Assembly: GCF_017876755.1 (NCBI RefSeq)
Contig: NZ_JAGIOO010000001.1
Span: forward strand, 186,001-250,000
Source: Crossiella equi
Lineage (GTDB): Bacteria; Actinomycetota; Actinomycetes; Mycobacteriales; Pseudonocardiaceae
Reading direction: 5' to 3'
Length of the DNA: 64,000 bases
Below are positions 39,308 to 42,398 of this stretch, one piece after another. Under the pieces are notes generated by a model. The model saw only the letters and a program-made list of their open reading frames with translations, was not told the DNA's origin and ran no database searches. The position numbers and the translations under genes are program-made. Within the stretch, counting starts at the first letter, position 1. Each line of letters begins with the position of its first letter.

Positions 39308-40351
39308 TCACTCCGCCACGGCGCTCTCGCCACCCACCCCGGCCGCCTCCGCCAACGCGCGATACGTGCGATTGCCCACCGCCGCCGCCCGCTGTTCCCG
39401 CCCCGTCGCCTCGATGTAGTTCTGGCTCGTATTCAGGTTCGCATGCCCCAACAACGCCATGATCTCAGCCGCATTCGCCCCGTCCTCGGCCAACCGCGTC
39501 GCGAACGTGTGCCGCAACGCGTGCAGGTTCGCCCCCGTCGGCACCCGGTCGTGAATTCCCGCCGCCCGATAACAACAGCTCACCAGATACTGCAACGCCC
39601 CCCGCCCGATCGGCTCACCCCGCAGGTCCAGCACCAACGCCGACTCCCGCCCGAACCGCAGGTGCGGGAACCGCGACCGGCACGAGGCCAGGTACCGCGC
39701 CAGCACCGCCTCCATCGGCCCCGAGATCGGGATCGACCGCTCCCGGCTGCCCTTGCCCCGCACGTGCAACCGCTGCTCACCCGGCCGCCCCACCACGCTC
39801 GAGACCAGCAACGCCCGCATCTCCGCCGACCGCAGCCCCGTGACCAGCCCCAAACCCACCACGAGGAGGTCCCGCTCCGGCCACGGGTCCCGCGACTTCC
39901 GCTCACCCGAGGCCACCGCCGACAACAGCTGCTCCGGCGTGTCCTCACCCCGCAACGGCTTCGGCATCGCGGGCGCCGGACGAGGCCGCGCCACCGCCCC
40001 CATCGGGTTGCCCGCCACCAGCCCGTCCGCCACGCAGAAGTTCATGAACTGGTTCCACGTCGACCAAGCCCGCGACACCGACATCTTGGCATGCGTCTCC
40101 GCGAACGCCCCGAACGCCTCCCGCAACGCCCCGGCGCCCACCCGCGCCAACGGCAGCTCCGGGGGAGCGCAGCCCAGTCCCTGGGCCAGCAACGCCGAAA
40201 TCCCGGCCAGATCCCGCCGGTACGCCGCCGTGGTGTGCGGCGAGTCCTTCCGCGACCGCCGAGCGAGGAAGAAGGACTCCTGGGCCTCAAGCAACAACAC
40301 ACCCAGAGGAATACCGCACCCCACCGACAAAGATCGACACGGCCGGTGCAC
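39308..40351 (-). CDS. XerC/D-like tyrosine recombinase
   Basis: 347 residues as drawn from GTG 40351; no good ribosome site is present and GTG 40324 or 40300 may be the real start. A core-binding SAM-like domain (EAQESFFLARRSRKDSPHTT) precedes the catalytic domain. Catalytic residues are visible: Arg in TGLRSAEM, Lys in VRGKGSRERSIPI, HALRHTFATRL (His and Arg), LGHANLNTSQNY with the second His and the Tyr nucleophile. No excisionase, phage or transfer genes accompany it. It lies about 2 kb from the dif-like site, which makes a link to that site or a degraded element possible. Confidence 0.88.
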   Translation of the reverse strand: MHRPCRSLSVGCGIPLGVLLLEAQESFFLARRSRKDSPHTTAAYRRDLAGISALLAQGLGCAPPELPLARVGAGALREAFGAFAETHAKMSVSRAWSTWNQFMNFCVADGLVAGNPMGAVARPRPAPAMPKPLRGEDTPEQLLSAVASGERKSRDPWPERDLLVVGLGLVTGLRSAEMRALLVSSVVGRPGEQRLHVRGKGSRERSIPISGPMEAVLARYLASCRSRFPHLRFGRESALVLDLRGEPIGRGALQYLVSCCYRAAGIHDRVPTGANLHALRHTFATRLAEDGANAAEIMALLGHANLNTSQNYIEATGREQRAAAVGNRTYRALAEAAGVGGESAVAE

Positions 40352-40372: not shown

Positions 40373-41200
40373 TCAGAGCTCCGAGGCGCCCCACTCCAGC
40401 ACGTCCAGCTCGTCGCCCACCGAGATCTTGCCGCCCCGCAGCACCGCGTACTTCGACCCGAACGCCACCCCGCCCAGCGCCGCCCGCCGGTACTTCGCCA
40501 GCGACCGCAGCGGCTCCGGACCCCGCTTCACGCCCAGGACCTGGTCCACCGTGGTCACCGCGCACCGGATGGCCAGCTTCGCATAGCCCAGCTCCACGTC
40601 ACCGACCCGCAGGCGCCGCACCTCGTCCTCCACGTGCGGGGCGTCCCAGCCGTCCACCACCAGGTTCGCCCGGAACCGCGACACCGGCAGGGCCTCGGCA
40701 CCCGCGTCCACGATCCGCTCGTTCAGCCCGGCCAGCGAGGACAGCGACAGCAGGTGCACCGCGTTGCTGTCGGCGAAGCCCGAGGTGCCCGGCGTCAGGC
40801 CGTCCGTCACCCGGCCGTGCTCCGGCGGCACCCGCACCAGGCGGCTCTGCTCGCCCAGCACCTCGGACAGCCAGGCCGCGGCCTCGGAACCCTGGTCGAT
40901 CGCGGAGTAGGGGTTGTTGAACATCAGGACCTCGGCCCGGGGCCCGGTCACGTCCACCGCGACCTCCACCGACCCGAAGCCCTCGGCGCGGAGCACCAGC
41001 TGCTCGCCGTCGGCCCGTAGCTCCGGGTGCACCAGCGCCAGCCGGGGGTCCCGCCGCTGGGACCGGAACACGCCGGTCTCGTCGGTCACCATGAAACTGC
41101 GGTCGCCCGCCAGCCCGGCCGGTCCCACCAGCGCGTCCGCCACGGACGCACCGGCACAGCCCTTCACCGGGAAACAGGTCAGCTCCACCACTTTCGCCAC
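40373..41200 (-). CDS. MOSC-domain protein
   Basis: 275 residues. The N-terminal beta-barrel (VVELTCFPVKGCAGASV, LAGDRSFMVTDETG, SQRRDPRLALV) and the C-terminal MOSC core (RFRANLVVDGWDAPHVEDE, LAIRCAVTTVDQ with the conserved Cys, LRGGKISVGDEL) match YcbX and mARC-like proteins. These bind molybdenum cofactor and reduce N-hydroxylated compounds or carry sulfur. The gene stands alone, 21 bases upstream of the recombinase start on the same strand. Confidence 0.9.
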   Translation of the reverse strand: MAKVVELTCFPVKGCAGASVADALVGPAGLAGDRSFMVTDETGVFRSQRRDPRLALVHPELRADGEQLVLRAEGFGSVEVAVDVTGPRAEVLMFNNPYSAIDQGSEAAAWLSEVLGEQSRLVRVPPEHGRVTDGLTPGTSGFADSNAVHLLSLSSLAGLNERIVDAGAEALPVSRFRANLVVDGWDAPHVEDEVRRLRVGDVELGYAKLAIRCAVTTVDQVLGVKRGPEPLRSLAKYRRAALGGVAFGSKYAVLRGGKISVGDELDVLEWGASEL

Positions 41201-41304: not shown

Positions 41305-41745
41305 ATGACCACCACGCTCGCCGCGTTCGCCGAGGCCAGCACCGCGATCCTGACCGGGCTGTTCTTCACCTTCTCGGTGGTGGTGATGCCCGCGCTGGCC
41401 CGGCGGCCGCCGGGGGAGGCGGCGGCGGTGATGATCCAGATCAACCGGACGATCCAGAACCCGCTGTTCCTGTCGGTCTTCCTGGGCGCGCCGATCGCCG
41501 CGGTGGTGCTGGCGGTGCTGCGGGACCTCGCGGTGCCGTCGACGGTCGCGGCCGGGGCAGTGGTGGTGGGGAGCCTGGCACTGACGATGGGGGTGAACGT
41601 GCCGATGAACAACGCGCTGGACGCCTCGGACCCGGCGACGGAGGAGGGACGCGTGCTGTGGGCGGGGTATCTGCGGCGGTGGACGGGGTGGAACCACGTG
41701 CGCGCGGTGGCCTGCCTGACGGCGAGCGTTCTGTATGCCGTCTGA
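41305..41745 (+). CDS. DUF1772 (anthrone-oxygenase-like) membrane protein
   Basis: 146 residues, GGGAGGAC ribosome site, about four membrane helices. The FFTFSVVVMPALARRPPGEA segment and later VNVPMNNALD plus WTGWNHVRAVACL are the DUF1772 signatures, shared with anthrone oxygenases and Streptomyces noncatalytic relatives. Function in actinobacteria is unknown. It is the first gene right of the composition change and the last before the gene-poor dif region. Confidence 0.85.
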   Translation: MTTTLAAFAEASTAILTGLFFTFSVVVMPALARRPPGEAAAVMIQINRTIQNPLFLSVFLGAPIAAVVLAVLRDLAVPSTVAAGAVVVGSLALTMGVNVPMNNALDASDPATEEGRVLWAGYLRRWTGWNHVRAVACLTASVLYAV

Positions 41746-41766
41746 CTCCCCCGTGATTCTTGTGGA

Positions 41767-41794
41767 TTCGTGCATAATGGCGGTTATGCACGAA
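41767..41794. repeat. Perfect 11-6-11 palindrome in gene-poor region
   Basis: Arms TTCGTGCATAA (41767-41777) and TTATGCACGAA (41784-41794) flank a 6-base spacer. The geometry equals that of Xer recombination sites, and GCATAA/TTATG resemble their inner arm bases, but the perfect symmetry also fits a dimeric repressor. No gene starts nearby on either strand that it would obviously control. Confidence 0.6.
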
Positions 41795-42261
41795 ACACCC
41801 GTCTGAACTGGGCAAACTAGTGTCACCGTGACGTAAGAACCCGTGTTGCTCCGGACCTCTGGCCCCAATGGCGCAGCCGTACGACAGCCGTTTGATCGTG
41901 TTCGGCGCGGCCGGGAGCCTCCGAGCCCAGGGGTCGCCAGCGGCGATGGAGGCCAGGGCGACCCGGGGCACCGATGCGGCCATTCGGGGCACCAGCTCAT
42001 GCCATCAGGGGAATTCTGGGGCCGTAGAGCCGAGTTCGAGCCGCCAGTCGTCCCACGGTCCGCCTGGTGCACGCCGCCTGGCCGGCTCGCCCGCGTTCTG
42101 ACGCCGACTCAGCGGCGAACTGAGGCCGCCGCCGTCGCACCGACGGCGGCAACGCTGGCAGAACGGCGCACAGCGAAGCGCTGGTCGACACGAGCCGGAT
42201 GCCAGTGTCACGAACCGGCGGGTTGACGCACCTGACAGCCCCTCTCGGCCCAGCTGCGTAT
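41795..42261. other. Gene-poor intergenic stretch before dif
   Basis: Several frames are open on both strands but none has a ribosome site, family resemblance or consistent codon pattern. A short palindrome GTCAC-C-GTGAC lies at 41823-41833. The stretch may hold gene remnants or polar sequences for chromosome segregation; I cannot support a gene. Confidence 0.5.
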
Positions 42262-42289
42262 CTGTCCGATAATCTACATTATGTTAAGT
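42262..42289. other. dif: Putative dif chromosome-dimer resolution site
   Basis: Left (XerC) arm CTGTCCGATAA at 42262-42272, centre TCTACA at 42273-42278, right (XerD) arm TTATGTTAAGT at 42279-42289. The right arm differs from the E. coli dif arm TTATGTTAAAT at one base and the inner ATAA/TTAT core is intact, with the standard 6-base centre. It lies in a gene-poor gap, where plus-strand composition changes, as expected for a terminus. XerC/XerD would resolve chromosome dimers here with FtsK. Confidence 0.8.
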
Positions 42290-42398
42290 AGTGGGTTCGG
42301 AGCCCTCCCGGACCCACTCTCCCGGTCGCCCGGGTCGAACCGCGGCAGCCTCGTTCGTCGGTGTGCTGACAGCACGTACCGAGTGGAAGGAGGCAGCC

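Follow-up and report, generated by a model that had tools for sequence, protein, structure and literature searches.

The dif site of the Crossiella equi chromosome is probably one member of a pair. Its partner is a second, symmetric site, termed site2, which would be served by a recombinase of its own, DLX, forming a single-recombinase Xer system beside XerCD/dif. The gene, for which the name dlx is coined here, encodes a third Xer-like tyrosine recombinase. Chromosome dimer resolution is usually treated as one site with one or two recombinases, and here a second site with what appears to be its own enzyme is kept no more than about 1 kb from dif across several filamentous actinomycete families. 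The DNA analysed, called the window, is a stretch of 64,000 nucleotides (bases 186001-250000 of one contig of 9,440,186 bp), and all feature positions below are those of the window.

The 28-mer at 42262-42289 on the plus strand is, to judge from its sequence, a genuine chromosomal XerCD target, dif, as the initial annotation had proposed. It has the 11-6-11 structure, with the XerC arm CTGTCCGATAA, the centre TCTACA and the XerD arm TTATGTTAAGT, and the latter is one base away from the E. coli XerD arm. The dif core CCGATAA-N6-TTATGTNAA has a single match in the 9,440,186-bp contig when up to two mismatches are allowed, so the genome-wide search found no equally good rival copy; the reversed core pattern, used as a control, has no match genome-wide. 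The site is also conserved in relatives, as the core was matched (up to two mismatches) in 96 of 100 genomes, namely the own genome and 99 relatives. The dif of Frankia alni, CACGCCGATAATGCACATTATGTCAAGT, given in the available part of PMC3025954, is close to it. An imperfect inverted repeat, AGTGGGTTCGGAGCCCTCCCGGACCCACT, lies immediately to the right of dif at 42290-42318. The dif site itself is ordinary and is not the new part. It had also been described as lying alone in a gap, which is wrong because a perfect 11-6-11 palindrome is found at 41767-41794 and a linked recombinase gene lies 1.9 kb off.

This palindrome, site2, reads TTCGTGCATAA-TGGCGG-TTATGCACGAA and is the proposed target of DLX. 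It is single-copy in its own genome at up to three mismatches. The inner ATAA...TTAT is the same as in dif, and the remaining arm bases differ from dif and are symmetric. Arm symmetry is kept as the sequence changes: in a set of 52 different arm pairs, symmetry holds at 480 of 572 positions, against a mean of 444 and a maximum of 468 in 5000 shuffles, in a test whose related sequences are not independent and from which L295 was left out. Such symmetric arms suit one recombinase. None of 83 site2 sequences has a palindromic centre (about 1.3 expected at random), and 83 non-palindromic centres of 83 suit directional exchange. Of the 62 dif loci read, 35 have a site2-like palindrome no more than 5 kb from dif, and 27 have none in that range. 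A different palindrome, GTCACCGTGAC, is located between site2 and dif at 41822-41832. Palindromes of this type, GTCACSGTGAC, were considered as a part of the module and rejected, since 15 of 62 loci have one less than 3 kb from dif and genomes without dlx have them too.

The dlx gene is located at 39308-40351 on the minus strand, 1.9 kb from dif, and is transcribed away from both site2 and dif; its start codon is uncertain. In the window, it is separated from site2 by 1.4 kb and two other genes, both outside the module: a MOSC-domain gene (40373-41200, minus strand; PF03476, PF03473) and an anthrone-oxygenase-like gene (41305-41745, plus strand; PF08592). DLX has the predicted catalytic set R174, K200, H277, R280, H303, and Y312, and all six residues are invariant in 21 homologues and in a set of 38. 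Its profile scores are 146.1 for XerC (cut-off 335.15) and 120.2 for XerD (cut-off 329.6). In a quickly built, unrooted tree with long XerC/XerD branches, dlx stands apart from XerC/XerD of its own genome and of E. coli, and the branches largely follow families. Below both equivalog cut-offs and on a separate branch of the tree, dlx is classed as neither canonical XerC nor canonical XerD. The genome encodes an XerD elsewhere (346 bits; cut-off 329.6) and a second Xer homologue with 282.6 bits on the XerC model, whose cut-off of 335.15 is reached by none of 14 genomes. In addition to dlx, the own genome and 13 of 15 relatives encode two homologues of the XerC/XerD type, so a lack of these does not explain the presence of DLX.

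Judged by dlx, the closest named genus is Crossiella, with 92% to Crossiella sp. SN42, and the tree places the gene within Pseudonocardiaceae. The dN/dS ratio of 0.09-0.26 in 10 own-genus pairs indicates purifying selection. The nearest solved structures by sequence include XerD, XerA, and XerH. A structure model of DLX is of moderate quality (pLDDT 78.6, pTM 0.56) and becomes poor near the catalytic tyrosine, at residues 304-316. Among the 50 matches listed, a fold search with it found tyrosine recombinases, Cre structures among them, with modest TM-scores of 0.37-0.51 by query length. The contacts of XerD to FtsK, E183/E184 in the available part of PMC5052618, were tried as a test of dlx and rejected. 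Neither dlx nor the XerD of the host itself conserves them, which makes the comparison uninformative.

The gene and the site occur together. Of 100 genomes (the own genome and 99 relatives), 36 contain dlx at E <=1e-40. The exact core TGSATAA-N6-TTATSCA is found in 35 of these 36, and the last one (G015) has it with one mismatch; none of the 64 genomes without dlx has the exact core, where absence of dlx was judged on the top 21 first-look candidates per genome, and the control matches were also zero. A wider class sample of 394 genomes gave 33 with dlx, 36 with the site core, and 32 with both, with absence of dlx judged here on the top five first-look candidates per genome. Four of these genomes have the core without dlx (G134, G366, G390, and G423), and one alone has dlx without the exact site (G308), its site having a mismatch. 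One family (39 genomes of one genus) has no site2, no dlx, and one dif match. Among the 35 genomes with the exact site, 34 have a single copy. The remaining genome, G066, has three copies, a dlx homologue of 38-40% on a 199-kb contig, and no site copy within 5 kb of its dif. In the loci of this genome (L194-L196), two of three site2-type palindromes lie about 0.1 kb upstream of recombinase homologues.

The arrangement of the three features was followed in 80 named loci, which are the best 80 of at least 493 encoded relatives and overlap in part with the 100 genomes. A dif lies within 13 kb of dlx in 62 of the 80. Site2, allowing up to 4 mismatches among 11 arm positions, is present in 59 of these 62 and was not found in L235, L264, and L281; the 80 loci, 1.53 Mb in total, contain 67 such 28-mers. 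All 59 have site2 on the stretch from dif to the start of dlx, three of these sites falling 16-28 bp beyond the aligned start, and its distance from dif has a median of 434 bp and a range of 256-1340 bp. In the other 18 loci, dif is absent from the 13 kb around dlx, and 15 of these lack site2 as well; the 15 include all five from Saccharopolyspora and Actinopolyspora and seven Acidimicrobiia-type MAGs. Relative to dlx, dif points one way in Pseudonocardiaceae (21 loci), Kribbella (3), and 11 of 12 Nocardiopsidaceae, and it is reversed in Micromonosporaceae (23). As dif was flipped between families and the order was kept, the closeness has outlived reorientation. With one locus taken from each of 23 genera, no other gene family lies within 9 kb of dif in more than eight. 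Because the loci were picked by dlx, the fair reading of this count is that dif linkage outlasts other synteny. In three Kribbella loci (L224, L227, and L229), dlx nests within Pseudonocardiaceae and lies 0.5-1.3 kb from dif, and the dif there has arms and a centre unlike those of Amycolatopsis. In Kribbella, a transferred dlx module may have come to lie beside the dif that the recipient already had.

The position of site2 close to the gene, no more than 130 bp from the dlx start in 38 of the 59 loci, is also what would be seen if site2 were an operator for dlx transcription, bound by DLX or another dimeric regulator, with the closeness to dif being inherited gene order. A palindrome with a variable spacer fits a repressor site too, and the four plasmid relatives described below also have a palindrome upstream. 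However, in the other 21 loci site2 is 0.23-6.9 kb from dlx, and in the window it is 1.4 kb away with two genes between. The order dif-site2-dlx is also kept where families differ in the direction of dif with respect to dlx. In nine genomes of eight genera (G009, G016, G026, G028, G037, G038, G041, G049, and G055), contig positions put a distance of at least about 44 kb between dlx and dif. Site2 is still 0.34-0.61 kb from dif in each of them, the exact site exists in one copy per genome, and the 18-20 kb read around dlx contain none. Such a separation speaks against a plain operator, which we regard as an unlikely explanation. In eight of the nine, dlx is more diverged (50-55% identity), and in G026 it is 72%. 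G014 was considered as a further genome of this type and was not counted, as two of its contigs end near the features and may adjoin.

Relatives of dlx are found on plasmids. A tblastn search detected homologues on 60 plasmids (Mycobacterium 32, Rhodococcus 18, and others 10), all at less than 60% identity, and five weak matches in phages. In all four Rhodococcus plasmids read, a 28-bp 11-6-11 palindrome with 0-1 mismatch is located upstream of the recombinase gene at a distance of 0.1-0.9 kb; two of the plasmids have it ahead of an overlapping upstream gene. These findings suggest that the dlx/site2 module came from a plasmid multimer-resolution system. They could also be taken to mean that a mobile element once integrated near dif, like the elements that exploit XerCD, and that dlx and site2 are what is left of it or its attachment site. 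The homologues on Mycobacterium and Rhodococcus plasmids, the two other genes between dlx and site2 in the window, and the nesting of the Kribbella copies in Pseudonocardiaceae, which suggests transfer, agree with such an origin. It is nevertheless improbable, because the own genome has one dif, one site2, and no flanking duplicate and is not classed as IMEX-bearing, 34 of 35 genomes have a single exact site copy, the tree branches mostly track families, dlx is under purifying selection, and the same order is found across families.

The initial annotation had also stated that the window spans the chromosome terminus, and this is supported by two observations: dif is roughly 105 kb away from the point opposite dnaA, and the polarity of the octamer CGGGGGAG reverses beside dif. 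The single dnaA copy is at 4,843,3xx of 9,440,186, which puts its antipode at about 123 kb if the chromosome is circular; dif, at 228 kb, is 1.1% off. Base skew gave no such signal. Among 64 sampled segments (20 kb each, one of 4 kb), the two arms do not differ in GC skew (Mann-Whitney p 0.49) or AT skew (p 0.92), and the local flip in the window, from minus to plus, is the reverse of the usual terminus sense. With no arm difference in GC skew, there is no shift point to set dif against, and the skew check that had been proposed is unusable here. Sequenced chromosomes of Pseudonocardiaceae are reported as circular in the accessible part of PMC4210621. The ends of the contig have no overlap or terminal inverted repeats beyond one 29-bp match. 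The octamers keep the same sense across the contig ends (23 plus and 1 minus in six 20-kb segments at 9.0-9.44 Mb; 26 and 0 in five segments at 1-186 kb), which fits a circular chromosome.

Despite the flat GC skew, CGGGGGAG is strongly strand-biased, with 132 leading and 16 lagging copies in the 64-segment sample. There are 78 plus and 11 minus copies before the switch and 6 and 53 after it, with the switch point sought across the whole sample of about 1.26 Mb and not fixed at dif beforehand. The switch lies between 227,411 and 227,746 of the contig, 0.5-0.9 kb from dif; in the window, the last plus-strand copy of this KOPS-like polar octamer before the genome-wide switch is at 41411-41418 and the first minus-strand copy after it is at 41746-41753. 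The octamer switch offers a precise terminus marker where GC skew is uninformative, as here. In all five own-genus genomes, a minus-strand octamer lies 21 bases to the left of site2. The form YGGGGGAG converges on dif in Pseudonocardiaceae with site2 (left 125 plus and 8 minus, right 1 and 104), five of the eight minus-strand copies on the left being one motif adjoining site2 in the five own-genus genomes. The same convergence is found in Pseudonocardiaceae without site2 (left 56 and 0, right 0 and 55), Nocardiopsidaceae (69 and 0, 3 and 76), Micromonosporaceae (64 and 1, 0 and 62), and Kribbella (12 and 1, 0 and 15). Between site2 and dif, no octamer is present in 31 Pseudonocardiaceae genomes (7.4 expected), and three are present in the other families (8.5 expected). 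The small number of octamers between the sites suits a common target zone. The E. coli KOPS, GGGNAGGG, was considered as the polar signal and rejected: the counts in family genomes with site2 are 42 plus and 51 minus on the left and 35 and 39 on the right, and those in family genomes without site2 are 25 and 12 and 16 and 29, respectively. CGGGGGAG has the strand polarity of KOPS, reversing at dif, and may be an FtsK-guiding signal.

From these data, we infer that DLX binds and recombines site2 and takes part in dimer resolution. Site2 would be bound by DLX at its two identical 11-bp arms and would pair with site2 on the sister chromosome. Strand exchange by DLX across the 6-bp centre would follow, in the manner of Cre at loxP and of XerS and XerH at their sites. 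FtsK-type pumping, guided by the CGGGGGAG octamers that point at the pair from both arms, would bring the sister termini to the septum, where DLX would resolve chromosome dimers or unlink the sister termini. A difficulty for this reading is that two resolving sites at a distance of 0.5 kb would, if unregulated, reverse each other's action. That DLX is a DNA-binding accessory at site2, which modulates XerCD/dif, condensation, or the FtsK machinery without recombining site2, would agree with the narrow distance range (256-1340 bp), the fixed order, and the octamer-free interval in 31 family genomes, but it is hardly probable given that all catalytic residues are invariant and that none of the 83 centres is palindromic, as directional exchange would need.

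One lineage has an altered dif. In four loci (L289-L292), the usual dif core was not found at up to one mismatch in the 6.5-9 kb read, and L291 has one match with two mismatches. All four have the palindrome ACCAGACAGAA-N6-TTCTGTCTGGT, or one near it, with an 11-6-11 structure and variable centres, 435-569 bp from site2, and octamer polarity converges on the segment containing the two palindromes. Seven genomes of this lineage (G151, G245, G308, G351, G399, G415, and G460) all have one XerC/XerD-type protein, each with a single hit above 200 bits on the XerC model (227-272 bits); seven other genomes tested on this model have two homologues above 200 bits each. G399 and G415 have one dif-core match somewhere in the genome. 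The idea that the lineage relies on site2 alone for want of dif was rejected, as the second 11-6-11 palindrome is near site2 in all four loci. The natural reading is that this palindrome is a symmetric dif for the sole remaining XerC/XerD-type protein. Together with the data above, it can be hypothesized, with slightly better than even confidence, that many actinomycetes have a double resolution locus, composed of dif and, 0.26-1.3 kb off, a symmetric site for a plasmid-related third recombinase within one FtsK convergence zone, and that in the lineage with one XerC/XerD-type protein, dif turned into a palindrome and site2 and dlx were kept.

Text searches of an open-licence library listed no description of a second Xer site with a third recombinase beside dif in actinomycetes, and the paired dlx/site2 module is undescribed as far as these searches show. 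For Kutzneria albida, one putative dif is given in the accessible part of PMC4210621. The module raises the questions of why there are two sites, what coordinates their opposing effects, and whether a second resolver is required for hyphal growth or sporulation. Because gene and site co-occur so sharply, the system lends itself to experiments in E. coli and in laboratory actinomycetes.

Several known systems resemble parts of this locus. Cre/loxP-type systems carry out plasmid multimer resolution, and they share with dlx/site2 the symmetric arms, one recombinase, and relatives on large plasmids. Unlike Cre, DLX has its sequence kinship with Xer, and the function of the plasmid copies is putative. 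The polar octamers KOPS/AIMS, in the available part of PMC5993296, are strand-biased and point at the terminus on both arms, as CGGGGGAG does. However, CGGGGGAG differs from GGGNAGGG, which has no clear polarity near dif in site2 genomes, and GGGGGAG was not found in the main text of PMC5993296. The XerCD/dif system of Actinobacteria, in the portion of PMC3025954 consulted, shares the 28-bp 11-6-11 site, one per chromosome, at the terminus, with CCGATAA-N6-TTATGT and two XerC/XerD-type homologues. It differs in that a second site is not mentioned in that portion, and its agreement with GC skew fails in this genome. XerL/dif of Legionellales, as given in the part of PMC9765430 available, also has a single recombinase at a terminus site and is plasmid-encoded in one lineage; unlike dlx/site2, it is the chromosome's own dimer resolution, and that part describes no XerCD/dif beside it. 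A further parallel is given by XerS/difSL, XerH/difH, and XerA/dif (available part of PMC5357621), in which a single Xer recombinase is genetically linked to the site it serves, although for XerA this holds in some species only. The dlx/site2 pair likewise has a full predicted catalytic set and a terminus site linked to the gene, a site that co-occurrence would assign to DLX. Site2 has 28 bp, an 11-6-11 structure, and often identical arms, and difSL, in the same source, has 31 bp and an 11-bp centre. According to this part of PMC5357621, those three systems replace XerCD, whereas dlx/site2 coexists with XerCD/dif.
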